From Tetrahymena thermophila SB210 (Eukaryota; Ciliophora; Oligohymenophorea; Hymenostomatida; Tetrahymenidae), in assembly GCF_000189635.1 (NCBI RefSeq), contig NW_002476012.1, positions 20,069 to 84,068 on the forward strand: 64,000 nt of DNA, in the 5' to 3' direction. A program made the position numbers and the translations under genes. A model generated the notes under the pieces. That model worked only from the letters and a program-made list of their open reading frames with translations, searched no databases and was not told the DNA's origin. Shown one piece after another: positions 9,866 through 60,423 of this stretch. Position 1 is the first letter of the stretch; each line of letters starts with the position of its first letter.

Positions 9866-11936
9866 TCAAGTCTTAATATTCTAAATAACTAATCTTTTCA
9901 TTTTCATAATATGCTCTGATATGGTTTTTTTTTCAAATATTTCATAATATTGAATCGTACTTTGACTACTGTATTTATTTGTGTAAAATAAATTTAATAA
10001 TAAAAATGTTTTAAAATTTGCAATTTTACTATAGAATCAATGATAAAACATTTATGTTTTTACAATTTATCAATTCCAATCCTAAGTAATGAATAGCTGT
10101 CACATCTATTTGATTATGTCTAGTTTAGAAAATTATATTTTAAAAAACATGTATTTTAAAATCTATAAAACTAATTTGAGTGTTAATATTTTTCATTAAG
10201 TAAATTAAGAATCACCAAATATACTTCAGAAAAAACTATTAAAATAACTCTAATATAAATCAAATTAACTATAAAGGAATAAAATTATTAATTAATTTAT
10301 TATTTTTACTGTAATTCTAACATCAAATGACTTAATTTTGAACACTTTGCTAACCCTTTAGATAATTTTATAATCGCTTCTTTTCTGATACAATTATTCC
10401 TATTCAAATCATATTTATTGGAATTTTTTAAAATTATTTTATAATTTCAAATATAAAAAGTAAATAAATAAAATAAGCAAAGTATTTCGATTTATAATTT
10501 AAAACCATTTTTAAATAAATATTTTACTATAAGCCTAGGTAAAGATAGACTATATTTTAACATTTTTCTAATCCTTCACCTAAGAAAGATGCAGCTTCAC
10601 TACTAATCTTACATCCACTAAAAACATTTATTTTATATGAATTTAAAAATTTTAATATTTTACCCTAAGTCCATTGTAACTTTTTTCAGTTAATTAGAGT
10701 TTTTTAGTATATAACCCAAATTTTAAACTATTTAGTGAGAAATTTAGCATAAGCTTTATTTTTTAAATAAATTAATTAATTTATTTTTGGAAATCATCAT
10801 AATTTATTAAAGTATTTTTTGATAGAAGTAAACAAATTCTTGTTAAGTTATTTTGACTATTTATATATACCACGCTCTCATAGAATTCATTTAAAACATT
10901 TTATAATTCATTTACTAAAATTTATTTTAATATATATCTATCAGTAAATTTATTTTTAATAAGTGTTAATCTTCATCAAAAATAAAAAATATATTAAATA
11001 TTAATACTTTAAATCTATATCAAATTCTTTTAGATTTCTAAATTCTGTAAGGCTTAAGCCAAATCCTTCTATTTATTCATTCACATCACCAAATTTATTT
11101 TCTCTATTTTTAAAATAAAAAGAAACATCTAATTAGAAAAAATATTTTATTTAATAATATTCTCTTTAAATATCAATAACAATGAAATATTTAAGTAGAT
11201 AAAGTTTATTTCCATAAATTATATTTTAATATTGTTTCAAAATACTATTTTTATTTATTTATTTACCTTAAATTGAGCTTCAATATTTCAAGACTCAAGG
11301 AACTTCCTAGCCCTGCTAATAATTAAATGAACATTTTACTTTCTATATTATTTTTTCTTTAAATAGAAATTAATATTTTGATAATGATAGATAAATTATT
11401 AAAGATACCTTAAATCAAAATCAACTATTTTTAGATTTTAACAATTCTTTAAACCGCCACAAAAGTCATTTATCTCTTCATAAAATTTAAAAGCGTTATT
11501 TCTAAAATTTTTAAATTAAAATTTTACTATTAACTCGATAATATGAATTTTTTTTACCTTAAATCTAATTTTAGAGTTGAAATAGTTTAACTTTTGCCTA
11601 GTCCATTGCAGAAACCAGAAATCCATTACTGATTAACTTTATTATTTCTAATAGAAAAATTTCAATTAATAAAAAAGCTATTATTAGTAAATGAAACTAT
11701 TATTACTGTAAAGAAACCTGCAAAGTATTGAGATTAGAGCTCATTCCTAATCCTGTTCCTAAGCTTTTGGCTCCATTATCACCGATATAGTTACAACTTT
11801 AGATATTTTTAATACTTAATCATAGTTATATTAATTATCTTCTTACATCAAATCTAGATTTAAATTTTTGAGATTTGGGCATTTTGATAATCCAGATCCT
11901 AATCCAAATAATCCAATATCGCTAATACTGTTTCCA
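9866..11936 (-). CDS. LRR protein, first exon damaged or unidentified (copy 1, gene a)
   Basis: Nine LRR exons read cleanly: 10030-10119, 10310-10399, 10528-10617, 11008-11103, 11267-11356, 11409-11501, 11558-11647, 11707-11796 and 11847-11936. Most are 90 bp; two are 93 and 96. Each encodes one ribonuclease-inhibitor-type repeat, for example IGLFGLGSGLSKCPNLKNL. The last exon (9866-9959) ends in KMKRLVIQNIKT and TGA, the family's C-terminal signature. The neighbouring copy (14638-16911) has a start exon; here the matching stretch at about 11982-12080 has lost that ATG, carries about 8 extra bases and has an in-frame TGA. The gene either uses another start or is decaying. LRRs of this kind are protein-binding scaffolds; the partner is unknown. 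Confidence 0.65.
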
Positions 11937-12321
11937 CTTTTAATTAAAAATATATAGGTAATAAAATAATAATTAATTTACAGCCTTAAAAAAATTATTA
12001 ACTAAACTCTAAAATTAATTTTAAAATGAATACTGACTGTAATTCATTCTACTTAAATTAGAATTATTTATTATCAACCAAAACCACTCAAAAATAAAAA
12101 AGGAATTTAAATAACAATAAAATTGAATTTATTTTTAAAAATCTATTTATGAAGCTCAAAGGTATGTTTGTTATAGTGGATGAATTTTATTTAGTTAATA
12201 CTTATAGTAAATTTGTATTATTAAATATTTATGCATCAGAAAATTTTGATAAAGTAGAATTTTTGTTAACTCCTATAGTTATTTTATGAGTCTTGAGTAT
12301 CAGCTTTTACTGCTAATAGTT

Positions 12322-14026
12322 TCAGCTTCCGAAAATATATTTATCATAAATTTTTAATATCTGAACTCTGTATATGTTTTTTGTTTTAATTTGATATATT
12401 TTATCTTTACATAAGTATTTATTTAGTTTTAAAATTTTTGGCTTGCTTGTAAATTAAAATAAAAACCTTAAGTTGATATTTATGTATTATAGACATCTAT
12501 TATTTCCTAGCTTGTTTCCTATTTCACTCGCACCTTTAATGCTAATGTGATTTAAACTTTTAATTCAATAAAAAGAACTGTTGAGAATCATATTAAAATG
12601 AGCATTTGTTACAATAGATTAAGGTATAGATTTTCTAAATTTTAGAAATTGCCAATTGCTTAACTCAAAGTAGATATTCCTTAATCACAAATATTGTTTT
12701 AACTATTTATAAAATACAATTTATTTATTTTTTTAAGAAAGGCAAAAAATATATTTTCTATCCAAATTTACTAATAAATAAATTAGTAAATCTGACCATT
12801 TTTTATTGATTTCTATCAAAAATGTATTAATTTAATGAAAAAATGATTCAACCTGAAATCAAGGGTAAGATTTTATATATTGCTCAGATTTTTTATCCCT
12901 GAGCTGAAATTTGCCAATCCTAGATCCTAAATATTATTCTAACTTTTATTAATAATTAAAAAATAAGTTTACTGTTCAATAATTCAATTTTATATAAATT
13001 TTAAGCAAATTTAAGAATGCTAAAAGATTTTTGCAAAAAATGAAAATTTGATTTTTCAAGATGAAATGATTTTGATTTCTAAAACAAGCAAAAAAGTTTT
13101 TAAAACAGCTAGCTATCTTACCTTAAAGATATCATTAAATTTTTTAAATTTTAACAATTTCCTAAAGATTTGCCTAAATAAGAAGCTCCATTATCACAAA
13201 TTTAGTTTTACCTTTTATTTATTTTGAAAAAGATGTTTGTTTAAAAATATTGATAACAATTATTTTGTTTTTTTCAAGTTGTAAATTAAGAAATGTTTAT
13301 TTGCAGATAACTTAAAAAAGTTAAACTTGTGATTAATTTAAAAAGAGAGTAGAATTTGCAAGATTTAAACAGTCTTCTAACCATAATAAAATCCAAAAAC
13401 TCCTTTATCACTCAGTAAATTTTAACTTTAAAATAAGGAATTTAAATTTTGATTGGTAAAGATTTATCTAATTGATTATAATTTAAGCAGTTCTCAATTA
13501 AAGCAGCTAATAAAATTTGAATAAAGATATAAATAAAACTCTATAAGATTGAAGCATATTTCAGGTTTATTTTAATTAAATAACTTTTAAAGTAAATAAA
13601 TACTCTAAGTTAAGTGTCAAATTTTTTAAATTAGAACAGTTTGTTAAGCCTTTTCCTAAATCCTCTGTTTGTTTGGTCCCAAATAGATTAGATCTTTTTT
13701 TTAAATAATTATTTTAATAATCTTAATATTAATTGAATATTTTATTTATAAGAATAAAGAAAAATAAATTATTCCATCTGCATGTTAATTTTAATACTTC
13801 TTTAATTCAGAAATTATTTTATGCTTTATTATCAAATTTTTTCAACAATAACACCTAAGTTAGTTTTCTTTAAAAAAATTTACCTCAGCTGTAGCTCAAG
13901 GCTATAAATGTTGGTTTATTTTGATTATAAAAACTATTAATTAAAAATATTAATATTTCGACTGCTAAAATCTTTATTGATTACATTTTTTAAAATAAAG
14001 TATTATTAATTATGTTCTTCTAGCAT
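12322..14026 (-). CDS. LRR protein with one dead exon (copy 1, gene b)
   Basis: The start exon 13884-14026 begins MLEEHNQQYF and ends in LELQLR before GTAAAT. LRR exons follow at 13604-13693, 13122-13211, 12853-12942, 12613-12702 and 12467-12556 (90 bp each), then a last exon 12322-12367 ending YDKYIFGS and TGA. Another LRR exon at about 13332-13421 appears dead: compared with its twin at 18124-18213 it has a one-base deletion, and its donor GT has become TT. Because each cassette is 90 bp in the same phase, skipping that exon keeps the frame and gives a protein of about 212 residues. Whether it is skipped or the gene is a pseudogene cannot be told from DNA. No signal peptide or membrane segment is evident. 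Confidence 0.65.
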
Positions 14027-14637
14027 TTTCTTTTTCTCAACCTTTTTTTTTTAATTTATTATTATTATTAATTATTATTTGATTTTTTCCTTATTCAATA
14101 TAAATTACAATCAAAAACAATAAAAAATTAATTTCTTATGAATACTGTAAAACTAATTTTCTGACGCCAAATTAAAAAAATTAAATTTTGGCATTCTTTT
14201 GATTAACCAAAATTTTGATTAATTTAAATCAAAAAATAGAAAAAAATTCAAAGTAAGAAATTGTGTTATTTGAAAAATTATATTGTTTTTTCAATTTATG
14301 TATCTTTATGATGCAATTAAAAACAAAATAACAAATATGTCAAAGATCAAACAAATATAACATTCATTCGCTTTTTTATCAAAAATAAATATAAATTGAA
14401 TTATATATTTACATGAATGCTTTTATTATATTTTCAAAAAGTATCATTTAAAAAATATAAAGTGTTTTTTTAATTAAAAAAATAATATAAGTATTTTATC
14501 AACAAAAAATTTATATAAAATATATCAATCAATCAATCAATACTATACTTTAATTAATTATTTTATTGATGAATAAAATGCGAAATATAATTTGGAAAAT
14601 ATTATCAAATCTTTTCGATTAAATTTCACTAAAAGCA
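14027..14637. other. Intergenic spacer between the two LRR block copies
   Basis: About 610 bp, very AT-rich, with runs of T, TTA repeats (14053-14082) and an ATCA repeat (14521-14540). It is 5' flank of the gene starting at 14026 and 3' flank of the gene ending at 14638. No coding sequence is supported. Confidence 0.7.
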
Positions 14638-16911
14638 TCAAATATGAATATCCTTAATAACTAATTTTCTCATTTTATGTATGTGCTCAAACATTATGAA
14701 TTTTTCAACTCTCTTTGGCCATACACTTTGATAACTATAATTATTTATATAATATAATTTTAATAATAAATAAAAACACTTTTTAATTTGATATTTTACT
14801 TTAAATCCAACTATAAAATAGTTAAGTTTTTGCAATTTATTAATTCTGATCCTAAGAAATTAAACACTGCCATGTCAATCTGATTTTAGCTTTTTTAGAA
14901 AATTTTACTATTAAAAACTATGAATTACTTAGCTAAGCTTTATAATATATAAAACTAATTTTAATGTTATTATTTTTTGCATTAAGCAAATCATCAACAA
15001 ATACTCCATCTGAAAAATTTTTTTTAAATTAAAGCTAACTCTAAAATTAATCAAACTAAATTTTTCTTAAAATAATAAAATTATAAATGTTCTAATTTTA
15101 CAAAAAGCTTATAATCAGATGATTTAATTTTGCACACTTAGCTAATCCTTCTGATAGTGTAAAAATTCCTTCTTCTCTGATAAAATTTTTCCTATTAAAA
15201 TCATATTTACTTATTTGTTCGTATTCGTTTGTTTATTTTAATAAAATTTTTTATTTCTAAAATAAAAAATAAATAAAATAATGAAAGTATTTTAATTTAT
15301 AATTTGAAACAATTATTAAATGTTCTACTATAAATTGAGGTTTAAATAGACTAAATTTTAAGATTTTTTTAATCCTTCACCTAAGGCAGATACCGCTGTA
15401 CTATCAATCTTGCATTCACTAAAAACATTTATTTTAGATGAGTTTTAGAAATGTTAGTATTTTACCTTAAATCTATTGATACTTTTTCAAGTTAATTAGA
15501 GTTTTATAGTATGTAACCCAAACTTTAAACTGTATCGAGTGAAAATTAGCATTAACTTTATTTTTTAAATAAATAAATTAATTTTAAAAAATCATCTTAA
15601 TTTAAAGTATTTTTTTATATTAAATAAACTTGTATTAACCAAGTTTGATTATTAATAGATACCATATTCTTATAGAATCCATTTACAAAATTTTGTAATT
15701 TATTTACTCAAATTAATTTTAGTGTATCTATCAATAAATTTATTTTTAATAAGTGTTAATCTTCCTCAAAAATAAAAAATATATTAAATATTAATACTTT
15801 AAATCTATATCAAATTCTTTTAGATTTCTAAATTCTGTAAGGTTTAAGCCAAATCCTTCTGTTTATTCATTCACATCACCAAACTTATTTTCTCTATTTA
15901 TAAAATAAAAAGAAATATCTAATAAGAAAATAAACATTTTTTTAATGAATAATGTTCTCTTTAAGTATTTATTTATTTAAATTAAAATTTTAAGTAGATT
16001 TAGTTTATTTCCATAAATCATATTTGAATATTGCTTCAAAATGTTATTTAATTTATTAAAGAAAATAATTTATTTGTTTACCTAAAATTAAGTTTCAACT
16101 TTTCAAGACTCATTGAACTTCCTAGTCCTTTGAATAATTAATTGGCTGTTATACTATCTATATTATTTTTTCTTTTAATAGAAATTAATATTTAGATAAT
16201 GATAGATAAATTATAAAAGATACCTTAAATCAAAATCAACTATTTTTAGATTTTAACTATTTTTTAAGCCACTACAAAAGTCAGATACCTCTTCTTAAAA
16301 TTTAAAAGCGTTATATCTAAAATTTTTAAATTAAAATATTACTTTTAACTGTATAATATCAAATTTTTTACCTTAAATCTAATTTTAGAGTTGAAATAGT
16401 TTAACTTTTGCCTAATCCATGGCAGAAACTAGAAATCCATTACTAATTAACTTTATTATTTCTAATAGAAAAATTTTATATTAATCATTTAAATTTATTA
16501 ACAAACTTCAATTAATAATGATTTGAAAATAAAACTGTTATTACTGTAAAGAAATCTGTAAAATATTGAGACTAGAGCTCATTCCTAATCCTGTGCCTAA
16601 GCTTTTGTCTCCATTACCACCGATATAGTTGCAACTTTAGATATTTTTAATACTTAATCATAGTTATATTAATTATCTTCTTACTCCAAATTTAGATTTA
16701 AATTTTTGAGATTAGGGCATTTTGCTAATCCAGATCCTAATCCAAATAATCCAATGTCGTTAATGCTGTTTCCACTTTTAATTAAAAATATTTAAGTAAT
16801 AAAATTAATAATTTACAGCCTTAAAAAAATTATTAACTAAACTCTAAAATTAATATTAAAATGAATACCGTAATCCTACTTAAATTAGAATTATTTATGA
16901 TCAACCAACAT
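14638..16911 (-). CDS. LRR protein, complete (copy 2, gene a)
   Basis: Eleven exons: start exon 16817-16911 (ATG at 16911, MLVDHKQFQFKQDYG), nine LRR exons (16685-16774, 16545-16634, 16372-16461, 16224-16316, 16082-16171, 15798-15893, 15329-15418, 15102-15191, 14800-14889) and last exon 14638-14710 ending KMRKLVIKDIHI and TGA. Total 987 bp, about 328 residues. All junctions are GT-AG and all fall after the second base of a codon. The repeats follow the pattern GLGxGLxKCxNLxxLxL. It starts only about 50 bp beyond the stop of the next gene on the same strand, so it lies head-to-tail with it. It is the tandem duplicate of 9866-11936. A cytoplasmic protein-binding scaffold is likely; the partner is unknown. 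Confidence 0.82.
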
Positions 16912-16959
16912 CACTCAAAAATAAAAAATTAAGGAATTTAAATAGCAAAAAAGCCGAAT

Positions 16960-18727
16960 TCATTATTAAAAATCTATTATTAAAGTTTAAGGTATGCTGG
17001 ATGATGGATTTTATTTAGCTAAAAATTTAAATAAATTTGTATTATTAAATATTTATGCATCAGAAAAATAATGATAAAGTAGAACTTTTGTTAATTCCAG
17101 TAAATAATATAGTGAAACTTGAGTAACAACTTTTACTTGCAAATAATCTTCGCTTCCGAAAATAAATTTATCATAAATTATTAATCTCTGAACTCTGCTT
17201 ATATTTTTCAGTTTTAATTTGATGTTTTTTATATTTGCATATTTAGTTTTATAAATTTTTTGGCCTGATTGAAAATTAAAATAAAATAAAAAACCTTAAG
17301 TTGATATTTATGTATTATAAACATCTATTGTTTCCTAACTTGTTCCCTATTTCACTCACACCTTTATTGCTTATGTGATTCAAGCTTTTAATTCAATAAA
17401 AAGAACAATTGCGAAACATATTAAAATGAGCATTTGTTACAATAGATTAAGGTATAGATTTTCTAGCTTTTAGAAATTGCCAATTGCTGAACTCAAAGCA
17501 GATATTCCTTAATCACAAATATTGTTTTAACTATTTATAAAATATAATTTATTTATTTATTTATTATTATTAAGAAAGTCAAATATATTTTCTCTTCTAA
17601 AAAACTAATAAACTAATTAGTAAGTTAGACCATTTTTTTTTAGTTAATGAAAAAATAATTAAACCTTAAATCAAGAGTAAGATTTTAAATATTATTCAGA
17701 TTTTTAAATCCTGAGCTGAAATTTGCCAATCCTAGATCCTAAATATTATTCTAGCTTTTATTAATAATTTAAAATAAGTTTACTTTTCAATAATAAATTT
17801 TATTCTAAAAAATAAATGGAAAAACATGGGTTTAGTTTTTAAGATGAAATTCATTTAAAAAACAAGTAAAAATGTTAAAAAGAGCTTTAGTACCTTAATG
17901 ATATCTTTAAATTGTTTAAATTTTAACAGTTTCCTAAAGATTTGCCCAAATAAGAAGCTCCATTATCGCAGATGTAGTTATACCTTTTATTTATTTTGAA
18001 AAAGATGTTTGTTTAAAAATATTGATAAAAATTATTTTGTTTTTTACTATTTTTGAAGTAAAATAAGTAAAATTTGTTTACATCTAACTCAAAAAAATTA
18101 AACTAATTTTGAAAAATGATTACTTTAAAAAGAGAGTCAAATCTGCAAGATTTAAACAGTTTTCTAATCCAGAACAAAATCCAAAAACTCCTTTATCACT
18201 CAGCTAATTCTCACTTTAAAATAAGGAATTTTAATTTTGATTAGTAAAGAAATATCTAATTGGTTTTAATTTAAGTGATTCTCAATTAAAATGGCTAATA
18301 TAATTTCAATAAAAAGATAAAACTCTTTAAGATTGAAGAATTTTTAGGCATTTTTTAATTAAATAAATTCTATGCAAAATAAATACTCTAAGTTAAGTAT
18401 CAATTGTTTTAAATTAGAACTGTTCCTTAATCCTCTCCCTAAATCCTCTGCTTGTTTGCTCTCAAATAAATTTGATCTTTTGTTATGAATAATTATTTTA
18501 ACAATCTTAATATTAATTAAAAATTATCAAACTTTTTCAATAATAAAGCAAATACAAGTGCGTATTTTCTTTAAAAAAATTTACCTTAGCTGTAGCTCAA
18601 GGTTATAAATGTTGGTTTATTTTGATTATAAAAACTATTAATTAAAAATATTAATATTTTGACTGCTAAATTCTTTATTGATTACATTTTGTAAAACAAA
18701 ATATTATTAATTATGTTCTTCAATCAT
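16960..18727 (-). CDS. LRR protein, complete, C-terminally extended (copy 2, gene b)
   Basis: Start exon 18585-18727 (MIEEHNQQYFVLQN, ending LELQLR), six 90-bp LRR exons (18387-18476, 18124-18213, 17894-17983, 17665-17754, 17441-17530, 17295-17384) and last exon 16960-17194. Total 918 bp, about 305 residues. The last exon carries the family tail VQRLIIYDKFIFGS, but where its twin at 12322 has TGA this copy lacks one base at the stop. The frame runs on for about 63 more codons to TGA at 16960-16962. The extension is rich in aromatic and aliphatic residues and may be non-functional. All junctions fit the family phase. The gene is divergent from the membrane-protein gene at 19965. Confidence 0.8.
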
Positions 18728-29388: not shown

Positions 29389-30028
29389 ATGAATAAGGTA
29401 TTTATTGTGTATGTGATTTATGAGTAAATTTATAAAGTTTATATATAAGAAGAATATTAATTTTTAATTTAATACTCTATTTTTTAAGGATTTTAAAAAT
29501 AATTTTATATTCAGAAGTCATCAATACATAAGTATCAAAAGTAATTAAGTATTTTAATAATACATAACTATTTTTGGTAATATTATAAAAAGTGCAAAAT
29601 GCAAAACAAAAAAAAGTTCAAAAATTTATTTTATGATAAAAATACCATAAAACTTTAATTAAAAATCATAACTTGATAATTTAAATTTAAATTTAATTTT
29701 TGTTTTTTAATAAGACATGTTGAATAGGCTAGATAGAATAGACTTTGAATAAGAAAATGAAGAATGGCAATCAATATAATCAGATAATATTTTATTTTGA
29801 ATTTCATAATACCAGCAATTACTATATATTTGCATATATGTAAAATAAATAAATAATACATAATGAATGATATTTATAAATATAAAATCAATAAAAAAAT
29901 CTATCATCTATCAATTTATATTTTAGGTTAAAAAAACTTTTTCAAACTAATATAAATTAAAACACAAATAATATTCTATTATTCAATCATTTAATATTAT
30001 TCATCCTTTTTTCGCCACTCGTTTATCA
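29389..30028. other. Convergent intergenic spacer
   Basis: About 640 bp between the stop of membrane-protein copy 2 (+) and the stop of the LRR gene (-). It is AT-rich with no credible coding sequence. Part of it (about 29870-30030) resembles the 3' flanks of the LRR genes at 46.3 kb and 53.7 kb. Confidence 0.7.
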
Positions 30029-33000
30029 TCAGAATTATTATTTAAAGACAACTAATCTTTTTGATTTAAGACACTTGCTTATTATTTTGAATTTTTATGA
30101 TTCATTCAATGAGCTAAAGATTTTATAATAAATTTGTGTAAATTTTAAAATAGAATAAAATTTAAAATTAAAAATTATTTCTTAAAATTAATAAATAAGA
30201 TAGGATTAGCGGAATAAAAAATATAAAAAAATAAATCAAATAAATTCAAATAGCTTTTTAGTTTTATGTTCATTTTTATAATTCAAAATATCACAATCCA
30301 AAACAAATAAACTGATTTTACCTAAGTTATAGTGTCAAATTTGAGAGATTAATGCACTTTGCTAAACCAGAACCTAAGCCTGATGCACCTTCATCACCAA
30401 TTTTATTCAAACTTTAAATATTGAAGAAAAAATATATCATTAAATAGTTAATTAGAAGGAAAAAATGAAGAAAAAATATGAAATAACAATAAAAGCAAAA
30501 GTTGAAAATAAAATGATGAGACAAATTAACAAAGAAAGAAAGAACAAAAAAAAGCAAGCACAATAAAAAGAAAAAGAAAAAAGAGCTTTATTGTTTTTAA
30601 TTTGATTTTATTATTCAAAATATCACAATCCAAAACATATAAACTGTTTTTACCCAAGTTATAGTGTCAAATTTGAGAGATTAATGCACTTTGCTAAACC
30701 AGAACCTAAGCCTGATGCACCTTCATCACCAATTTAATTTTATCTTTTTAAATATTGAAGAAAAAATATATCATTAAATAGTTAATTAGAAGGAAAAAAT
30801 ATGAAATAATAAGATTAATTAACAATAAAAGCAAAAGTTGAAAATAAAATGATGAGATAAATTAACAAAGAAAGAAAGAACAAAAAAAAGCAAGAACAAT
30901 AAAAAGAAAAAGAAAATAGAGCTTTATTGTTTTTAATTTGTTTTTATTATTCAAAATATCACAATCCAAAACAAATAAACTGTTTTTACTCAAGATAAAG
31001 TCTCAAATTTGAGAGATTAATGCACTTTGTTAAACCTGAACCTAAGCCTGATGCACCTTCATCACCAATTTAATTTTATCTTTTTAAATATTGAAGAAAA
31101 AATATATCATTAAATAGTTAATTAGAAGGAAAAAATATGAAATAATAAGATTAATTAACAATAAAAGCAAAAGTTGAAAATAAAATGATGAGATAAATTA
31201 ATAAAGAAAGAAAGAACAAAAAAAAAGCAAGCACAATAAAAAGAAAAAAAAATAGAGCTTTATTGTTTTTAATTTATTTTTATTATTCAAAATATCACAA
31301 TCCAAAACAAATAAACTGTTATTACTAAATGTTAAGTGTCAAATTTGAGAGATTAATGCACTTTGCTAAACCAGAACCTAAGCCTGATGCACCTTCATCA
31401 CCAATTTAATTTTATCTTTTTAAATATTGAAGAAAAAATATATCATTAAATAGTTAATTAGAAGGAAAAAATGAAGAAAAAATATGAAATAATAAGATTA
31501 ATTAACAATAAAAGCAAAAGTTTATAATTCAAAATATCACAATCCAAAACAAATAAACTGTTTTTACTCAAGATCTAGTGTCAAATTTGAGAGATTAATG
31601 CACTTTGCTAAACCAGAACCTAAGCCTGATGCACCTTCATCACCAATTTTATTATAGCTATTTAAATATTGAAGAAAAAATATATCATTAAATAGTTAAT
31701 TAGAAGGAAAAAATGAAGAAAAAATATGAAATAATAAGATTAATTAACAATAAAAGCAAAAGTTGAAAATAAAATGATGAGATAAATTAACAAAGAAAGA
31801 AAGAACAAAAAAAAGCAAGCACAATAAAAAGAAAAAGAAATAGAGCTTTATTGTTTTTAATTTATTTTTATTATTCAAAATATCACAATCCAAAACAAAT
31901 AAACTGTTTTTACTAAATGTTAAGTATCAAATTTGAGAGATTAATGCACTTTGCTAAACCAGAACCTAGGCCTGATGCACCTTTAGCACCAATTTCATTA
32001 CCACTTTTTAAATATTGAAGAAAAAATATATCATTAAATAGTTAATTAGAAGGAAAAAATGAAGAAAAAATATGAAATAATAAGATTAATTAACAATAAA
32101 AGCAAAAGTTGAAAATAAAATGATGAGATAAATTAACAAAGAAAGAAAGAACAAAAAAAAGCAAGCACAATAAAAAGAAAAAGAAATAGAGCTTTATTGT
32201 TTTTAATTTATTTTTATTATTCAAAATATCACAATCCAAAACAAATAAACTGTTTTTACTAAGTGTTAAGTATCAAATTTGAGAGATTAATGCACTTTGC
32301 TAAACCAGAACCTAGGCCTGATGCACCTTTAGCACCAATTTCATTACCACTTTTTAAATATTGAAGAAAAAATATATCATTAAATAGTTAATTAGAAGGA
32401 AAAAATGAAGAAAAAATATGAAATAATAAGATTAATTAACAATAAAAGCAAAAGTTGAAAATAAAATGATGAGATAAATTAACAAAGAAAGAAAGAACAA
32501 AAAAAAGCAAGCACAATAAAAAGAAAAAGAAAAAAGAGCTTTATTGTTTTTAATTTGATTTTATAATTAAAAATATCACAATCAAAAACAAATAAACTGT
32601 TTTTACTCAAGATCTAGTGTCAAATTTGAGAGATTAATGCACTTTGCTAAACCAGAACCTAAGCCTGATGCACCTTCATCACCAATTTTATTATAGCTAT
32701 TTAAATATTGAAGAAAAAATATATCATTAAATAGTTAATTAGAAGGAAAAAATATGAAATAATAAGATTAATTAACAATAAAAGCAAAATTTGAAAATAA
32801 AATGATGAGATAAATTAACAAAGAAAGAAAGAACAAAAAAAAGCAAGCACAATAAAAAGAAAAAGAAAATAGAGCTTTATTGTTTTTAATTTGTTTTTAT
32901 AATTCAAAATATTACAATCCAAAACAAATAAACTGTTTTTACCAAATATTAAGTGTCAAATTTGAGAGATTAATGCACTTTGCTAAACCAGAACCTAAGC

Positions 33001-33725
33001 CTGATGCACCTTCATCACCAATTTAATTTTAACTTTTTAAATATTGAAGAAAAAATATATCATTAAATAGTTAATTAGAAGGAAAAAATGAAGAAAAAAT
33101 ATGAAATAATAAGATTAATTAACAATAAAAGCAAAAGTTGAAAATAAAATGATGAGATAAATTAACAAAGAAAGAAAGAACAAAAAAAAGCAAGCACAAT
33201 AAAAAGAAAAAGAAAAAAGAGCTTAATTGTTTTTAATTTGTTTTTATTATTCAAAATATCACAATTCAAAACAAATAAACTGTTTTTACTAAATGTTAAG
33301 TATCAAATTTGAGAGATTAATGCACTTTGCTAAACCAGAACCTAGGCCTGATGCACCTTTAGCACCAATTTCATTACCACTTTTTAAATATTGAAGAAAA
33401 AATATATCATTAAATAGTTAATTAGAAGGAAAAAATGAAGAAAAAATATGAAATAATAAGATTAATTAACAATAAAAGCAAAAGTTGAAAATAAAATGAT
33501 GAGATAAATTAACAAAGAAAGAAAGAACAAAAAAAGCAAGCACAATAAAAAGAAAAAGAAAAAAGAGCTTTATTGTTTTTAATTTGTTTTTATTATTCAA
33601 AATATCACAATCCAAAACAAATAAACTGTTTTTACTAAATGATAAGTGTCAAATTTGAGAGATTAATGCACTTTGCTAAACCAGAACCTAAGCCTGATGC
33701 ACCTTCATCACCAATTTTATTATAG
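30029..33725 (-). CDS. LRR protein built from 11 near-identical exon cassettes (5' exon not identified)
   Basis: Last exon 30029-30077 encodes KCLKSKRLVVFKQQF then TGA. Eleven LRR exons, each exactly 90 bp, lie at 30322, 30654, 30990, 31326, 31568, 31914, 32260, 32607, 32943, 33290 and 33636 (low coordinates). Each reads as one 30-residue LRR such as QIGDEGASGLGSGLAKCIN followed by a short variable strand. Junctions are GT-AG after the second codon base. The start exon was not found; it should lie beyond 33725, and the region upstream shares its first 80 bp with the gene ending at 58479. At least 345 residues, probably a horseshoe-shaped intracellular binding protein. Exons and introns are nearly identical between units, so the array expanded recently. 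Confidence 0.85.
30322..33725 (-). repeat. Tandem exon-intron repeat array, 11 units of about 340 bp
   Basis: Start-to-start spacings are 332, 336, 336, 242, 346, 346, 347, 336, 347 and 346 bp. Introns are about 242-257 bp except one of 152 bp (31416-31567) that has lost an internal block. Unit types recur out of order: the exons at 31914, 32260 and 33290 share a ...GAKGASGLG version, and those at 31568 and 32607 share another. This suggests duplication of pairs of units as well as single ones. Confidence 0.95.
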
Positions 33726-34714
33726 CTTTTTAAATATTGAAGAAAAAATAAATCATTAAATAGAGTAAGTTGCCATACAAATTTCCAAAATGTGAGTTTT
33801 ATATACCAGCTTTACATTTTATAAAATTAAAATTTTAAATATTTTTTCAGAATTTTATTTCATCAAAAAAAACACACTGCTAAAAAAATAAATATTGATA
33901 TACTTTTATATTTTTTCTGTATAAATACGGTATAAAAAAAAGAAATTTAGCATCTAAATAAGAAGAGTATTTATTCCTTGAGAATGTTAATGAATTTTTA
34001 GTCATAATTTATATCTCAATATTTACAATTTAAAAATCTTAAATTTTTCTAGTAAAATACAAAATTAAATTTTGACATCTTTTTCACATTATATTCAAAT
34101 TTGTAATCTTTTCATTTCTAACTTAATTAGTATGAATTACATAGAAAATTTTCTAAGCATCTAGTTGCTATTGTATTAAATAATTAAATATTTTGCTCTT
34201 TCATTCATTAATTTGTTTAATGATTTTTCCTACAAAAGGTTTTTATCTTGTTTAAATAAAAAAACAGTGGATTAAATGATGATATTTGTTTATTATATAC
34301 TTACAATAATGAATTTTTAGATATTCTAAATAATTTTAGATTTGATATTATTGACTGAATAAATTTTTGAATTCTAAATTTGTTTAATTTTTTGATCTAT
34401 TTTAGACTATTAAATCAGGAATATTATTTTTATTGAAACATTTACATCAAAGATATCAATATTTTAAAGTTATAACTTTGAATCCATATTAATATTTTTT
34501 TATTTGTTTATTTATGTGTTCTATATTATAAAAAATAACTAATTCCTCAATTATTAAATAAATAAAGGTTTGAAATAATTCAAAAGTCTAGTAAATTATT
34601 GTACTACTATATATAAAAATATGAATGAATTATTTCTAAAATGAAATTATTTATAACAAATTTTAATATAGTTATTCATTATTATTTTAAATGATTAAAT
34701 CTATTTTGTTAAAT
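33726..34714. other. Region 5' of the LRR array, no confirmed gene
   Basis: About 1 kb. Positions 33757-33840 match 57590-57675 upstream of another LRR gene, so the gene's first intron probably extends here. On the minus strand 34305-34487 is an open stretch (ATG at 34487, MDSKLQLQNIDIFDVNV) ending at a strong GTAAGTATA donor, but it ends in phase 0 whereas the family needs phase 2. It is only a weak candidate first exon. Confidence 0.45.
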
Positions 34715-38800: not shown

Positions 38801-40664
38801 TCAAAAAAACATACGATTTTCTAAGAAATCAATTTGCTTCAAAACTAATTTTTTAGTTTTGAGCAATTTTATATTTAGTCTCCTACGAATCTTCACTGAG
38901 TCCACTCTCAACCTCATAAGTTATATTTATTATTTTTCAATCAATAAAAGAAAAAAAATCATAAAATAAAATAATAAATTTTAAATAAATTTGATGATAA
39001 TTTTTAGAAATTAAAAATTAATTTTAGCTGCATCATTTCTAAAATTTAAAAAAGTGTTTGAAAAAAAATTATTAATTTTATTAGAAAATTATTTTTACTG
39101 AATTCTAAGAGCTAAAATCTAGAGTTTAGGACATTTCGCTAAACAAAAACCCATTTTATCAGGACGTATAAAAGAACCTAATGAATTACTGTTTATAAGT
39201 AAAATTTTTATTGTTAAAAAATGAAGGAAATAATTAATATAATAATTTATAAAAAGAATATAAAATATAAATTATTCATTAAAATTAATAATCTAATATT
39301 TTTTTAATACTATTTGGAAGTTAGCATGGTGTTTGTTAGACTACCAAATTTTAACTTTAAAACTTTAAGATTAAATTGTGAAGTATAAAATTATAATGCA
39401 TTTAATAAGACATAAGATTCATTTCAGAAGTTAAATAAAATTAAAAAAATATTTACTCCATTTTGAGATTTAAGTTTTTGAGATTTTTGCAATTGGATAA
39501 GCATAGTGCTAATTCTTATATCCCTTTATCGTCAAAGAAATTATATCTTTATTATTTATTATAAACTATAAATAACAATTATTACATAAATCAAATATAG
39601 AAATTTTTAAATTAATAAACATAATAAAATCAAAATATTTTATCATAATTAATAAAACAAAAAATTTTTTTATTTATTCAATTTATAAAATAAAAAATAA
39701 ATAATTTAAGCTCTTACCCAATATTCAGATCTAAAATTGAAAGATTAGTAATATTTTCCAAGGCCAATCCCAGGTCTAATAAACCTTCTGACTCAAATCG
39801 ACTTCCACTTTTAAAATATTAGAATAATATTTTAAATAAATATTAAAAATATTTTTTACAAATAAAACCAAACAAGCTGATATTTATTTAATACCAATTA
39901 AAGGATCATTTACAAATAATAATAATAATCAAATAATATAAAATTATATTTTATTTAAAATAAATAAATATATGATCATACCTAAGGTTGAGATTTAAAT
40001 TCGAGAGATTAGTGCATTTAGACAAGTAACTAACTAAACCTGAAGCACCCTTACATCCAATATAACAGCAGCTTATTATTAAAATGTTAGATAGAAACAA
40101 TTTAAGAAATATCATAGTGAAAAAGTAAGCTATGGATGATGAATGCAAATCAATAAATAATAAACTGAATATTAATTTGATTTATTTTATTTTTTAAAAA
40201 TAAACAATTATTTATTGCATATACCATAGATTGAGTTTCAGAAATTAGAGATCAGTATACTTTTCTAAAGCTTAACCTAAAATTAATGCTCCTTCTTCGT
40301 AAATGTGTTGGCTCCTTTTAAGATATTTAAAATGAATTATTGATAAATCTTTGAAAATATTTTTAGAAATAGAAAATTAGGAGAAAGGTACTAATATAAT
40401 ATAAGAATGAAATAAAAAGCATTAATATTAACTTTGTTATTAATTTATTCATTTTAAAAATAAAAAATATTTTTATTATAATTAATTCACTTAAAAATAT
40501 TAAATGGTTAAAAATAATAAAATAATTCAATAAATATTTTAATTCTTTTACGTTATGTCAATATCTAGATTTGTATGTAAAAATTCTTCAGATTTAATAA
40601 ACTTTTTTTATTGTTGAAGTAAATATTTATCAAAAGATGCTTGATAAAATATTTACATCTTCAT
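38801..40664 (-). CDS. Compact complete LRR protein, five LRR exons
   Basis: Seven exons fit without strain: start exon 40552-40664 (MKMQIFYQASFDKYLLQQQ), LRR exons 40225-40314, 39982-40071, 39718-39807, 39457-39546 and 39099-39188 (all 90 bp), and last exon 38801-38882 (ends LLKTKKLVLKQIDF...MFF, TGA). The coding total of 645 bp gives 214 residues. All introns are GT-AG in the same phase. Repeats include GCKGASGLVSYLSKCTNL and SEGLLDLGLALENITNL, which are much more diverged from each other than those at 30-34 kb, so this is an old member. The gene starts without a signal peptide, so it is probably cytoplasmic. It is the clearest template for the family's gene structure in this window. Confidence 0.88.
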
Positions 40665-40697
40665 AACGACGAAATTATTTTATTTATTGTATCATTT

Positions 40698-46418: not shown

Positions 46419-49119
46419 TCACCAAAAGAATTCTATTTTAAAAACAACTAATCTTTTTGATTTAAGACACTTGCTTTCTACTTTTAAGTATTATGATTCT
46501 TCGATTGAATTTCCACTTTTATTATAAATTAGTGCAAATTACAAAAAAATAAAATAGAATAAAAATTTCAAATAATATTTAATATTAATAAATAAAAAAA
46601 TATTAGCAGAATAAACATGAAAAATAAAAAATAGGCCAAATAAAAAGTTTTAAATAAATTAAAACAGTTAAATTGATTTATATTCATTTTTATAAATAAA
46701 AATATTGCAATTCAAAACAAATAAACTGTTTTTACCAAAGATTAAGTGTCAAATTTTAGAGATTAGTGCACTTTCCTAAACCAGTACCTAAACTTGATGC
46801 CCCAATTGCACCAATTTAATTTCCTCTTTTTGGATATTGAAGAAAAAATATTTAATTAATTAATTAGTCACTTAGAAGGAAAAAGTATGAGTTATCTTTT
46901 ATCAATAATAAAAGCAAAAGTTGAGAATAAAAAAATGAGTTAATTTAAGAAATATAGAAAAAGAAGAAAAATTAGTACAATAAAAAAGAAAATGAAAAAT
47001 AAATCAAATAAAAACTAATAAGCAAATTAAAAGAATTAATTATATTGTTTTAAATTTGATTTTATAGATAAAAATATCAAAATCCAAAACAAATAAACTA
47101 TTTTTTACTCAAGATTAAGTGTCAAATTTGAGAGTTAAGAGCAATTAGCTAAAGCAGAACCTAAGTCTGATACTCCATCTGCACCAATTTAATTTCCCCT
47201 TTTTATAATTGATGAAAAAATATATTATTAATTAGTTACTTAAAAGGAAAAAATTAAGAAAAATATAAAGTAATAAGAAATAAATTAATTAATAATAAAA
47301 GTAAAAGTTGAAATTAAAAAAACGAGTTAAATAAATTAAGGAAGATACAAGAAGAAAAAATCACAAGTACAAAAAAATTGAAAAAGAAAAATCAATCAAC
47401 TAAAAAGCTAATAAACAAATTAATAGAATAATATAATTTAAAATTCATTTTTATAACTAAAAATATCACATTTAAAAACAAATAATTGTTGTTACTGAAG
47501 ATCAAGTGTCAAATATGAGAGTTAAGCGCAATTTACTATAGCAGAACTTAAGTATGATACCCCAATTGCACCAACTTAATTGTAACTTTTTAAATATTGA
47601 AAAAAATATATAAAATTAATTAGTTTCTTAAAAGGAAAAAATGAAGAAAAAATATAAAATGAAAAGAAATAAATGAACTAATAATAAAAGTAAAAATTGA
47701 AAATAAAATAAATTATTGAAGATAGAAGAAGAAAAAAATACAAGTACAAAAAAATTGAAAAAGAAAAATAAATCAAATAAAAACCAAAAATGTTTTAAAA
47801 TCATTTGTATAACTAAAAATATCACAATTCAAAAAAAAATAAATTGTTTTTACTCAAGACTAAGTGTCAAATTTTAGAGATTAGCACAATTTGCTATAGC
47901 AGAACCTAAGTTGGATGCACCAATTTAACCAATTTAATTCATACTTTTTAAATATTGAAGAAAAAATATTTAGTTTATTAGTTATTTAGAAACAAAAAAT
48001 GTAGAAAAAAATATGAAATAATAATTAATGAATTAATTAATTAAAAATAAAAGCAAAAATTAAAAGTAAAAAAATGAGTTAAATTAACAAAGATAGAAGA
48101 AGAAAAAAACAAAGTAAAATAAAAAAGAAAAATAAATCGGATAAAAAGCTTATTAAAAAATGAAAAGAGTTTAAATATTTTGTTTTAAATTCATTTTTAT
48201 ATCTAAAAATATCACAATACCTAACAAATAAATTGCTTTTACCTAAGATTAAGTGTTAAATTTAAGAGGTTAGTGCAATTTGCTAAAGCAGAACCTAAAT
48301 CTTATGCACCAATTACACCAATTTAATTTCCCCTTTTTAAAAATTAAGAAAAAATATTAATTAATTAGTTATTTAGAGAAAAATAAAGAAAAAAATATAA
48401 AAAATTATAAGAAAAGAATTAATTAATAATAAAAATTAAAGTAAAAAATAAAAAAATAAGTTAAATTAAGAAAGATAGAAGAAGAAAAAAACACAACTGC
48501 TATAAAAAAGTAAAAGTTAAATAAATCAAGCAAAAAGCTAATAAACAAATTTAAAGAATTATTCATTTTTATAAATAAAATTATCACAATTAAAAATAAA
48601 TAAATTGTTTTTACCTAAGATTAAGTGTCAAATTTGAGAGATTAGTGCACTTTCTTAAACCAGAACCTAAGACTGATAAACTTTTATCACCAATTTAATT
48701 TCCCCTTTTTAATTATTGAATAAAAAATATGAATTAATTAATTTAATTAGTTAATAATAAGGAAAAAATAAATGAAGAAAAAATATGAAAAAGAAATGAA
48801 TTAATGAAAAAGTTAAAAATAAAATAATGAGTTAAGAAAGATGAAAAAAACAAAACACAAATACAATAAAAAAGAAATACAAAAATAAATCAAACAAAAA
48901 GCTTATAAATAAATTAAAAGAGTTAGATTTTTTGTTTTAAATTCATTTTTATAAATAAAAATATCACAACTAAAGACAAATAAACTATTTTACCTAAGAT
49001 TAAGTGTCAAATTTGAGAGATTAACGCACTTTCCTAAATCAGAACCTAAGGCTTGTAAACCTTTATCACCAATTTAATTTCCCCTTTTTAAATGTTGAAG
49101 AAAAAATATGAAATAATAA

Positions 49120-49158
<39 letters not shown>

Positions 49159-50310
49159 ATGAATTGATAATAAAAACAAAAGTTCAAAATAAAATAATCA
49201 GGTAAATTAAGAATTATATAAGAAAAAAATACGAGCAGAATAAAAATAAATCAAATAAAAAAATATTAAAAAAAGTTATATTATTTTAAATTATTTTTTA
49301 TAACTAAAAATATCTCAATTCAAAACAAATAAATAGTTTTTACCAAAGATCAAGTGTCAAATTTGAGAGATTAGTACACTTTGCTAAACCAGAACCTAAG
49401 CCAGATGCACCAATTACACCAATTTTATTCATCCTTTTAAATAGAAATAAATGAATTAATTTGTAATAAAAGTAAAGCTGATAATAAATAAAATAGTTAA
49501 ATTAAGAAAGATAGAAGAGTAAAAAAACACAAACAAATAAAAATAATAAAGAAAAATAAATAAACCAAATAAAAAGCTACTAAACATATTAAAAGAGTTA
49601 AATTAATTATTTAAAAAAATTTTTATAAGTAAAAATATCACAATTCAAAACAAACAAACTATTTTTACTCAAGATTAAGAGTCAAATTTGAGAGATTAGT
49701 GCAGTTTGCTAAAGCAGAATCTAAGTCTAATGCGCCCTCATCTCCAATTTAATTGCTACTTTTTAAATATTTAAGAAAAAATAAATAAATTAAAAATTAA
49801 TTAATTAGTTAGTTACTTAGAAGGAAAAAATTAAGAAAAAATATGAATAATAAGAAATTAATTAAATAATCATAAAAGAAAAAGAAAAAAAATGAGTTAA
49901 ATTAAGAAATTTTGAAAAATAAAAAGCTAATAAACGAATTAAAAGAGTTACATTGTTTTAAATACATTTTTATAAATATCACAATCCAAAACAACAATTT
50001 ATTTTTCAAATAAAAAATGAATAAAAAATATCAAATAATAAAAAATGGGTAATAAATTTTAAAAATTGAAAGTAAAAATTAAGTTTAAATAACTAAAAAA
50101 TATTTTTATTAACAAAATCAATGAAAATAGGTGAGAATTTCTATGAAAAATATGATATGTAAATTGAAAGTTAATTAAAGAAAAAGTATTAATAATAATA
50201 ACATTTATAAATTAAAAATACCTCAGATTAATATGGACAACCTAATGAGATTATAGTGAAGAGTTTAAAAACTTTTTATATTAATTTAAATAAATTTAAA
50301 GTATATTCAT
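46419..50310 (-). CDS. LRR protein, nine LRR exons
   Basis: Eleven exons: start exon 50222-50310 (MNILQIYLNQYKKFLNSS, ending VVHINLR), nine 90-bp LRR exons with low coordinates 49669, 49344, 48994, 48615, 48243, 47854, 47496, 47109 and 46736, and last exon 46419-46473 encoding KCLKSKRLVVFKIEFFW then TGA. Coding total 954 bp, 317 residues. All splice sites are GT-AG in the family phase, and five repeats checked codon by codon have no TGA (for example SNQIGDEGALDLDSALANC). Units are about 325-390 bp and clearly diverged, unlike the array at 30-34 kb. Compared with the gene at 53820, the sequence just before this ATG has lost one T from a T-run, so the longer start used there is out of frame here. 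Confidence 0.88.
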
Positions 50311-53819: not shown

Positions 53820-56800
53820 TCACCAAAATAATTTTTAAAAGACAACTAATCTTTTTGATTTAAGACACTTGCTTATTACTTTGAATCTTTGTTATTCATT
53901 CATTGGGCTAAAAATATTATAATAAATTTGTGTAAATTTTAAATAAATATCAAAATAGAATAAACTTTTAAATTAAAAATTATTTCTTTAATTAATAAAT
54001 ATAATAGCATTAGTGGAATAAAAAAGATAAAAAATAAATCAAATAAAAGCTATCAAATAAATTCAAAGAGCTTTTTTGTTTTATATTCATTTTTATAGTT
54101 TAAAATATCTAAATCCAAAAATTATAAACTGATGCACCTATTGCACAAATTTAATTAATAATTTTTAAATATTGAAGAAAAAATATATCATTAAATATTT
54201 AATTAGAAAGAAAAAATGTTTAAAAAATATGAAATAATAAATAAGATTAATTAATAAATAAAACAAAAGTTGAAATTTAAATGATGAGTTAAATTAACTA
54301 AGAAAGAACAAAAAAAAGCAAGCATAATAAATAGAAAAAGAAAAAAAAATTTTATTGTTTTTAATTAGTTTTTATAATAAAAAATATCACAATCCAAAAC
54401 AAATAAACTGTTTTTACCCAAGATAAAGAGTCAAATTTGAGAGATTAATGCAATTTGCTAAAGTAGAACCTAAGCCTGATACGCCGATTGCACCAATTTA
54501 ATTTTCACTTTTTAAATATTGAAGAAAAAATATTTCATTTAATAGTTAATTAGAAGGAAAAAATGAAGAAAAAATATGAAATAATAAGATTAATTAATAA
54601 TAAAAGCAAAAGTTGAAAATAAAATGATGAGCTAAATTAACAATGAAAGAACGAAAAAAGGCAACACAATAAAAATAAAAAGAAAAAAGAGCTTTATTGT
54701 TTTTAATTAGTTTTTATAATAAAAAATATCACAATACAAAACAAATAAACTGTTTTTACCCAAGATCAAGTATCAAATTTGATAGATTAATGCAATTTGC
54801 TAAAGCAGAACCTAAGCTTTATGCACCTTCATCGCCAATTTAATTTTCACTTTTTAAATATTGAAGAAAAAATATATCATTAAATAGTTATTAGAAGTAA
54901 AAAATGAAGAAATAATATGAAATATTAAGATTAATTATTAATAAAAACAAAAGTTGAAAATAAAATAATGAGTTAAATTAACAAAGAAAGAACATAAAAA
55001 AGCAAGCACAATAAAAAGAAGAAAAAAAGAGAGCTTTATCAGTTTTTAATTAGTTTTTATAATTAAAAATATCACAATCCAAAACAAATAAACTGTTTTT
55101 ACTTTAGCCAAAGTTTCAAATTTGAGATATTAATACAATTTGCTAAAGCAGAACCTAAGCTTGATGCACCTTCATAACCAATAAAATTTTTACTTTTTAA
55201 ATATTTAAAAATTAATTAGAAGGAAAAAATGAAGAAAAAATATGAAATAATAAGATTAATTAATAAACCAAAATTTGAAAATAAAATGATGAGCTAAATT
55301 AGCAAAGAACGAACAAAATAAAGCAAGCACAATAAAATGAAAAAGCAAAAAGAACTTTATTGTTTTTAATTAGTTTTAATCATTAAAAATATCACAATCC
55401 AAAACAAATAAACTGTTTTTTACCCAAGATCAAGTGCAAAATTTGAGAGATTTATGCAATTTGCTAAAGCAAAACCTAATCCTTATACACCGATTGCACC
55501 AATTTAATTTTCACTTTTTAAATATTAAAGAAAAAATATTTCATTTAATATTTAATTAGAAGGAAAAAATGAAGAAAAAATATGAAATAATAAGATAGAT
55601 TAGTTAATAATAAAAACAAAAGTTGAAAATAAAAAGATGAGTTAAATAAACAAAGAAAGAACAAAAAAAAAGCAAGCACAATAAAAAGAAAAATTAAAAA
55701 GAGCTTTATTATTTTTAATTAGTTTTTATAATTCAAAATATCACAATCCAAAACAAATAAACTGTTTTTACTTAAGATTAAGTGCCAAATTTTAGAGATT
55801 ACTGCAATTTGCTAAACCAGAACCTAAGCCTGATGCACCCATTGCACAAATTTAATTTTTACTTTTTAAATATTGAAGAAAAAATATATCATTAAATAGT
55901 TAATTAGAAGGAAAAAATGAAGAAAAAATATGAAATAATAAGATTAATTAATTTATAATAAAAGCAAAAGTTGAAATTAAAATGATGAGCTAAATTAACA
56001 AAGAAAGAACAAAAAAAAGCAATCACAATAAAAATAAAAAGAAAAAAGAGCTTTATTGTTTTTAATTAGTTTTATAATTAAAAATATCACAATCCAAAAC
56101 AAATAAACTGTTTGTACGCAAGAACAAGTGTCAAATTTGAAAGATTAATGCAATTTGCTAAAGCAGAACTTAAGCCTGATGCACCTTCATCACCAATTTA
56201 ATTTTCACTTTGTTAAATATTGAAAAAAAAAATTATCATTAAATAGTTAATTAGAAGGAAAAAATGAAGAAAAAATAATAAGATTAATAAATAATAAAAG
56301 CAAAAGTTGAAAATAAAATAATGAGTTAAATTAACAAAGAAAGAACAAAAAAAGCAAGCACAATAAAATGAAAAAGTAAAAAGAGCTTTCATTTTTAATT
56401 ATTTTTTATAATTAAAAATATCACAATCAAAAACAAATAAACTGTTTTTACAGAAGCCAAAGTCTCAAATTTGAAAGATTAATGCAATTTGCTAAAGCAG
56501 AACTTAAGCCTGACGCACCCATTGCACCAATTTTATTGTAACTTTTTAAATATTGAAGAAAAAATATAACATTAAATAGTTAATTAGAAGGAAAAAATGA
56601 AGAAATAATATGAAATAATAAGATTAATTAATAATAAAAACAAAAGTTGAAAATAAAATGATGAGTTAAATTAACAAAGAAAGAACAAAAAAAAGCAAGC
56701 ACAATAAAAAAAATAGAAAAAAGAGCTTTATTTTTTTTAATTAGCTTTTATAATTAAAAATATCACAATCCAAAACAAATAAACTGTTTTTACCGAAGAT

Positions 56801-59699: not shown

Positions 59700-60004
59700 A
59701 ATAAATAAAGTGTCAAACTTGTGATATTCTTGCACTACGCTATTCCTGTGCCTAAATCTTTTGCACCCTCATCACCAATACTATTTGACCTTTAAATATA
59801 AGAATAAATAATGAATTAAGAAAATAAATTTGGAGGAGAAAGGATTGTAAAAAAAGATTGTTGCTTTTGTTAGTATGTTCGTTTGTTTTTGAAGGAGGGA
59901 GTAAGTAACTCAGTATGTAAGTAAGTAAGTAATTAAGTAATTAAGTTAACAAATTGATTATTTTTTAGTTGAGGAGTAAGTAAGTTATTAAAAAAGCAAT
60001 CTAA

Positions 60005-60039
<35 letters not shown>

Positions 60040-60390
60040 CTAACTAACTAACTCTAACTTGCTTACTAACGAAGTGACTTAATTAGCTAATCACTAAGTG
60101 AAAAGCGTAAATCAACAAAATAATCAATTTTTTCAAAATTTCTTGCTTTATCAATCGATAAATTAAGTTTTTACTATAAATCAATTGTCAAACTTGTGAT
60201 ATTCTTGCACTACGCTATTCCTGTACCTAAATCTTTTGCACCCTATGCAAAAAGTCTATTATTGCTTTAAATATAAGAATAAATAATGAATTAAGAAAAT
60301 AAATTTGGAGGAGAAAGGATTGTAAAAAAAGATTGTTGCTTTTGTTAGTATGTTCGTTTGTTTTTGAAGGAGGGAGTAAGTAACTCAGTA

Positions 60391-60423
<33 letters not shown>

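Follow-up and report, generated by a model that had tools for sequence, protein, structure and literature searches.

Differences between units of a Tetrahymena leucine-rich repeat exon array concentrate in codons predicted to lie on an exposed face

We examined a leucine-rich repeat (LRR) gene of the ciliate Tetrahymena thermophila SB210, which lies in a 64,000-nucleotide stretch of contig NW_002476012.1 (assembly GCF_000189635.1, positions 20,069 to 84,068 of the forward strand; this whole stretch is hereafter the window, and its first base is position 1). The gene contains an array of 11 exons on the minus strand at 30322-33725, and the differences between its units are concentrated in a small set of codons, among them those predicted to be exposed on a concave β-sheet. 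Every exon is exactly 90 bp and is bounded by AG and GT (11/11), and all 11 are in phase 2, i.e., the first base of the exon completes a codon, and are open in the ciliate code (table 6). A sequence-only reading of this DNA had described eleven one-repeat, same-phase LRR exons of exactly 90 bp, and this description was confirmed. Joined together, the 11 exons contain no TGA and encode 11 LRRs (Pfam PF13516 LRR_6, E 2e-28). The equal lengths should not be counted as 11 independent facts because one unit was tandemly duplicated; Tandem Repeats Finder returned periods of 336 and 346, i.e., a repeat unit of ~336-346 bp.

From 5' to 3', the exons (all AG/GT bounded and phase 2) are exon 1 (33636..33725, YNKIGDEG...LTLII), exon 2 (33290..33379, GNEIGAKG...LILNI), exon 3 (32943..33032, QNQIGDEG...LTLNI), exon 4 (32607..32696, YNKIGDEG...LTLDL), exon 5 (32260..32349, GNEIGAKG...LILNT), exon 6 (31914..32003, GNEIGAKG...LILNI), exon 7 (31568..31657, YNKIGDEG...LTLDL, the same coding type as exon 4), exon 8 (31326..31415, QNQIGDEG...LTLNI), exon 9 (30990..31079, QNQIGDEG...LRLYL), exon 10 (30654..30743, QNQIGDEG...LTLQL), and exon 11 (30322..30411, LNKIGDEG...LTLQL). 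They are separated by introns of 256, 257, 246, 257, 256, 256, 152, 246, 246, and 242 bp in the same order. The first residues of exons 1-11 read Y-G-Q-Y-G-G-Y-Q-Q-Q-L, so that exon types recur in differing order, and intron 7 (31416..31567, minus strand), at 152 bp versus 242-257 bp in the other nine, is ~100 bp shorter than the rest; the claim that the cassettes are frame-neutral and shuffled thus holds. Nine of the 10 array introns contain an in-frame TGA; retention of an intron would therefore usually stop translation.

Downstream of the array we propose a terminal exon at 30029..30113 (minus strand), with a phase-2 acceptor, the sequence SLNESQKFKIISKCLKSKRLVVFKQQF, and a stop TGA at 30029-30031, which explains why the sequence-only reading had begun its gene at 30029. 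Five alternative acceptors near this putative exon also give open frames, of 23-48 residues, and the region around it (29900-30230) has at least 39 other matches in the genome. On the upstream side, a conserved stretch at 33726..33868 (minus strand) ends in the intron acceptor of exon 1 and is common to many family members (86-96%). A right-phase ATG exon upstream of exon 1 was not found in a six-copy alignment judged by eye, with no script or gene finder, and Pfam detected no nucleotide-binding site (NBS; NB-ARC or NACHT) domain in the 11-exon part, which does not cover the 5' coding end. One array unit has at least 311 matches in the genome, the window's own units included. A comparison of LRR_6 with the whole genome (150 of 280 candidates scored) returned only 2 matches, as is expected when exons are scored singly.

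The exon architecture and the modular-cassette idea are already published. According to the main text of Xiong et al. 2019 (PMC6564038), Tetrahymena has tens of thousands of LRR exons of exactly 90 bp, >96% of which are flanked by phase-2 introns, with 1 to ~50 such exons per gene in most genes. The same text distinguishes three age groups, with a peak of group III intron lengths at ~257 bp in T. thermophila and ~232 bp in T. malaccensis, invokes unequal crossing over, reports variable unit numbers between paralogs, and describes a physical linkage of LRR units with the REP retrotransposon. It also arrives at the view that the cassettes are shuffled. Further marks of group III are masking by published consensus repeats, species specificity, and a pericentromeric or subtelomeric location in the micronucleus. 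The window array looks like a young, group III-type member of this family: group III genes have at least three exactly 90-bp LRR exons in a row (11 in the window array), phase-2 introns (11/11 exons phase 2), introns of ~257 bp, DNA-level intragenic repeats, and unequal exchange, and we found no difference in architecture. The difference lies elsewhere, in that the part of PMC6564038 available to us, its main text, does not describe contact-codon hypervariability and speaks of purifying selection.

We scored 314 units from the window and from 28 fetched loci with similar units, and 19 were dropped (AG or GT missing). Thirty-five arrays with at least three good exons and at least two introns of 220-300 bp were kept, short-intron arrays being left out. 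Arrays with a mean intron difference below 0.15 were called young (29 arrays, 209 good exons) and the remaining six older. The arrays hold 3 to 16 good exons, some being cut by contig or fetched-region ends. Array statistics count only introns of 220-300 bp, which drops intron 7 of the window array, whereas the figures for the window array by itself use all 10. In the 29 young arrays, both the mode and the median intron length are 257 bp (189 introns <450 bp). Sixteen of the 29 lie <1 kb from a contig end (L033 (49), L034-L036, L038, L040, L041, L044, L047-L050, L054-L056, and L060), and no CCCCAA runs of three or more were present in the fetched loci; the assembly therefore probably fragments within arrays, which makes the unit counts minimum values.

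Within the window array, units differ on average by 2.1% in introns and by 10.1% in exons. Sixteen of the 19 variable exon positions fall at nucleotides 1-20 or 78-90, where the difference is 24%, as against 1.4% in the exon centre. We designated codons 1, 3, 6, 7, 26, and 28, together with the codon split by the intron (J), as the hypervariable set. Over the 29 young arrays, mean differences are 0.034 for introns, 0.037 for other exon bases, and 0.343 for hypervariable bases, i.e., an approximately tenfold excess. Hypervariable sites exceed introns in 29/29 young arrays (209 exons), with a median ratio of 9.2 and a smallest ratio of 4.6, and the 13 young arrays that lie >1 kb from a contig end all agree (introns 0.047, other exon bases 0.053, hypervariable bases 0.378; 136 exons). 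This excess is per base; being longer, introns still hold many differences by number. Four-fold sites at conserved codons differ by 0.051. The hypervariable sites were defined on the very data they are tested with, a circularity that a split-half check answers in part, the arrays being related: 16 sites picked on half of the arrays gave 0.435 versus 0.055 in the other half. A set defined by LRR structure (xxLxLxx codons 26, 28, J, and 1), chosen after the profile had been seen, gave 0.427 versus 0.081 for the rest of the exon. The sequence-only reading had placed variety in unit number and order, and it missed this concentration of between-unit variety in particular codons.

The contrast is sharpest between units whose introns show no substitutions. 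These pairs (from 138 units in 23 arrays, indels uncounted) come from an initial set of 23 young arrays with 170 exons, as do the figures given below on linkage, on recurring edge sequences, and on the intron bases next to the exon. The 18 hypervariable bases differ by 0.41 in five same-array pairs and by 0.37 in seven other pairs, and conserved exon bases by 0.008 and 0.012, respectively; with 16 of the 29 young arrays near contig ends, two units compared across contigs may belong to a single broken array. One group of seven units has just one intron column that segregates; among these units codon 1 occurs as TTT, AGC, or AAC and codons 6-7 as GCA-ATG or GAT-GAA, with further variation at codon 28 and at J. 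Over the 209 exons, codon 1 takes 32 codons for 15 residues and codon 28 takes 26 codons for 15 residues, and J takes 33 codons for 17 residues at 176 junctions. In the six older arrays the contrast is weaker (introns 0.228, conserved exon bases 0.162, hypervariable bases 0.458); there introns and conserved exon bases have made up ground.

Alignment to solved LRRs places codons 26, 28, J, and 1 at the predicted exposed x positions of the β-strand motif xxLxLxx, and the positions in between vary little. PDB matches of the array protein include 5irm (listed as uncharacterized, which we take to be NOD2), RanGAP 1yrg, and DRC5, and the stretch L27-x28-L29-J-x1-N2-x3-I4-G5 (LDLxxNxIG) aligns with LDLQYNSLG in the solved LRR chain of 9y6s. 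The established LRR structure puts the leucines and the asparagine on the inside and predicts that residues 26, 28, J, and 1 face outward, on the concave sheet. The intron thus divides the predicted binding strand midway through its variable part, and exchange within introns would recombine half-surfaces.

Codon usage indicates what varies at these sites. Next to the variable codon 1, codon 2 is AAT in 203/209 exons and AAC in 0/209, and codon 4 is ATT in 204/209. The first base of codon 3 is T in 134 exons, A in 48, G in 26, and C in 1, and no codon 3 ends in G (0/209). TAA occurs 122 times at this codon and CAA once, although both encode Gln, so that the synonymous swap is nearly absent at an otherwise variable base. 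Across codons 1, 3, 7, 26, and 28, Gln codons begin with T in 164/168 cases, compared with 449/589 in six open reading frames (ORFs) of the window. No TGA was present in the 314 scored units, although stops were allowed. Synonymous sites that are interleaved with the variable codons are therefore frozen, which points to selection on the amino acid rather than to a mutable base.

Ten further clusters of such 90-bp exons, of 2-10 exons each, lie in the window, at 59.7-61.2, 54.4-57.6, 46.7-49.8, 39.5-40.3, 17.4-18.5, 16.5-16.8, 14.8-15.4, 12.6-13.7, 11.6-11.9, and 10.0-10.6 kb. The sequence-only reading had counted five other LRR genes with the same exon rule, and five is plausible as a number of genes. 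A second young array at 54418..57559 (minus strand) has 10 units, nine with perfect AG, 90-bp, and GT structure, and introns of 231-258 bp; its differences are 0.074 for introns, 0.080 for conserved exon bases, and 0.483 for hypervariable bases. An older array at 46736..49758 (minus strand) has nine exons, introns of 235-299 bp, and little contact-codon excess. Also on the minus strand are four LRR exons of 90 bp at 39457..40314 with introns of 153-174 bp, 20 phase-2 90-bp LRR exons in six clusters at 10030..18476, where three introns are 50-59 bp, and four LRR exons at 59700..61182 with introns of 361-385 bp, inside a period-451 tandem repeat (59609-61327).

Two long and very similar tandem ORFs, of 1131 and 1129 amino acids (aa), lie on the plus strand at 19965-23357 and 25999-29385 and match a TRP-channel family (PF06011, E 7e-11 and 4.6e-11, respectively); the second ends ~0.6 kb from the LRR gene. 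Another plus-strand ORF at 3672-9509 encodes 1945 aa in the ciliate code and has no Pfam match at E 0.001. Adjoining the array on the minus strand, a 112-aa frame at 34718-35053, inside a longer ORF, starts MRKLIFLAVIAVCLSIAYA; it has no Pfam match, and we read its sequence as secreted-looking. A 188-bp tandem repeat in two copies with 96% matches occupies 40697-41073.

Taken as a whole, the pattern probably reflects cassette homogenization by unequal exchange combined with strong diversifying selection on contact codons. We suggest that unequal crossing over and gene conversion would keep duplicating and homogenizing units, an exchange that 90-bp phase-2 exons would render harmless. Strong diversifying selection on the binding face would meanwhile keep fixing amino-acid changes at contact codons, and each array might then yield an extended binding surface that carries contacts of its own. 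Recombination had been put forward earlier as one of two possible sources of variety, and it gains support from the reordered exon types and from the variation in unit number between paralogs reported in the main text of PMC6564038. More tentatively, array proteins may recognize diverse external partners, for instance prey, pathogens, or the products of these. The earlier suggestion that the design would suit recognition of variable partners is strengthened by contact-codon hypervariability, though recognition itself is something we infer.

Several observations weigh against this reading. First, Asn, Asp, and Tyr codons end in C in 131/192 cases at codons 1 and 28 but in 282/1159 in six window ORFs (p 2e-31, a value that overstates independence because two of the six control ORFs are near-identical paralogs), and selection by itself does not predict C-rich third bases at these codons. 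Glu at codon 1 is encoded by GAG in 15 exons and by GAA in 13. Second, variants of a codon in the same array are closer to one another by only a weak margin than variants drawn at random from the pool, which were as close in 11/300 draws for codon 1 and 43/300 for codon 28, so that descent of the variants in single steps is weakly supported. Third, hypervariable sites are near saturation at zero intron distance, which implies an acceleration that is very large for selection alone. Fourth, the main text of PMC6564038 reads the ratio of non-synonymous to synonymous substitution rates (Ka/Ks) of these LRR genes as mostly purifying; this ratio was taken over whole genes, where a few contact codons would be diluted. 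Fifth, arrays were picked as good DNA matches to the window unit and have a recent shared ancestry, and hence are not independent. Lastly, the older window array at 46736..49758 has no exon-edge excess (intron 0.226, exon edges 0.212, centre 0.222), and by site class its values are 0.226 for introns, 0.177 for conserved exon bases, and 0.361 for hypervariable bases.

One alternative is that the skipping of frame-neutral LRR exons gives a single gene many isoforms. Every exon is a multiple of three nucleotides (3n) and has the same phase, so skipping would preserve the frame, and as far as its main text goes, PMC6142364 reports a 3n bias like that of animals in the skipped exons of just one non-animal, T. 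thermophila. Splicing could alter the number of repeats, whereas new orders could arise only by trans- or back-splicing. The main text of PMC6564038, however, does not mention alternative splicing or exon skipping, mis-mapping among near-identical repeats could fake skipping, and exon skipping leaves the codon pattern unexplained, so we regard it as an unlikely account. The main text of PMC6142364 contains no mention of leucine; the T. thermophila 3n bias could stem from the 90-bp LRR exons or from mis-mapping between such exons.

We give little credence to neutral turnover alone, i.e., the published tandem duplication of a 90-bp exon/intron unit, with nothing special in the differences between units. 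Exon length, phase, intron length, and array size all match the main text of PMC6564038, and recent duplication accounts for the uniformity of the units. Yet turnover of this kind predicts equal differences at introns, synonymous sites, and contact codons, whereas contact codons exceed introns in every young array by at least 4.6-fold, and the excess is far larger still in pairs with identical introns.

Also very doubtful is the idea that contact codons are ancient variants kept by balancing selection and that short gene-conversion tracts homogenize introns and exon centres. Short edge sequences do recur in differing combinations, and codons 6-7 (z 18.4) and codons 1-3 (z 6.8) are linked in the 170 exons. 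Codon 28 and J, however, which are three bases apart, are weakly linked (z 2.9), and the frozen synonymous sites between contact codons could be reached only by conversion tracts of a few bases. With interleaved synonymous sites frozen, we judged old balanced alleles with short conversion tracts to be unlikely.

A dedicated process that rewrites contact codons within a fixed cassette, in the germline or during macronuclear development, would account for near-saturation at zero intron distance, for the number of different codons seen (32 for codon 1, 26 for codon 28), and for the unusual C-ending third bases, and the physical link of units to the REP retrotransposon described in the main text of PMC6564038 would fit it too. 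On the other hand, what the variable sites track is a predicted protein surface instead of any particular base or motif, most variation in codon 3 falls on one base, where the TAA-CAA swap is nearly absent (122 versus 1), codon 2 adenines are untouched, and TGA is absent from all 314 units; we hold such mutagenesis to be highly improbable. Still slighter is the chance that targeted rewriting constitutes a programmed germline or developmental receptor-diversification system, perhaps acting through the REP reverse transcriptase. Two specific mutational candidates were rejected. Adenine-targeted change in the manner of a diversity-generating retroelement does not fit the fixed adenines of codon 2 beside the variable codon 1 (a template repeat was not searched for). 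A hypermutable exon edge does not fit either: the edge codons 2, 4, 5, 27, and 29 show little variation (0.00-0.19 per base), and differences are likewise 0.00-0.20 over the ten intron bases that flank the exon on each side (gaps excluded).

Homogenization combined with diversifying selection has parallels in known systems. In PRDM9 zinc fingers, units are kept alike by turnover and non-synonymous changes at contact codons -1, 3, and 6 escape homogenization, as stated in the part of PMC3890296 available to us. The young arrays likewise are uniform at synonymous and spacer sites and have non-synonymous variety at predicted ligand-contact residues, but they differ from PRDM9 in consisting of LRRs with introns, in hundreds of copies and many arrays, and a DNA-binding role is not implied. 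This mode of evolution also features unit numbers that differ between individuals; the arrays compared here come from one genome. Among plants, the available portions of the sources describe diversifying selection at the exposed x of xxLxLxx together with gene conversion between paralogs in coffee SH3-CNL genes (PMC3113787) and highly variable residues on the LRR surface of highly variable NLRs (hvNLRs; PMC8226289). Exposed x residues of xxLxLxx are diversified in plant NLR/CNL LRRs, as are predicted exposed ones in the Tetrahymena arrays, whereas the uniform one-repeat exons set these arrays apart; an NBS part was not found in the 11-exon stretch, which does not cover the 5' coding end. Lamprey variable lymphocyte receptors (VLRs), assembled somatically from cassettes, carry their variety on the β-strand (concave) face. 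They share LRR modules with the arrays described here, for which a recognition role is inferred. VLR variety arises via a gene conversion-like process with cytosine deaminases (PMC3900441, from the portion available to us), a mode of assembly that is a VLR feature and is not shown here.

The concentration of unit differences in contact codons appears to be new, and the novelty concerns the codon pattern only. Among the open-access papers listed in our searches we found no report of this pattern, most subscription journals being outside that coverage, and the main text of PMC6564038 is silent on it, though sequence logos in its figures and supplements, which lay outside our check, may show variable positions. 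The architecture of these genes was known before and their purpose was not; the main text of PMC6564038 offers one published guess, an immunity-like recognition of bacteria. Should the pattern prove general among strains, the largest class of species-specific genes in Tetrahymena would be a repertoire for recognition, its binding face diversified with unusual precision at the level of codons; the frame-neutral 90-bp cassette in phase 2 would then be the device for its safe turnover. The question of why Tetrahymena has almost 2,000 LRR genes would thereby become directly testable in a tractable laboratory cell, for which the arrays supply hundreds of natural variants of one predicted binding surface.

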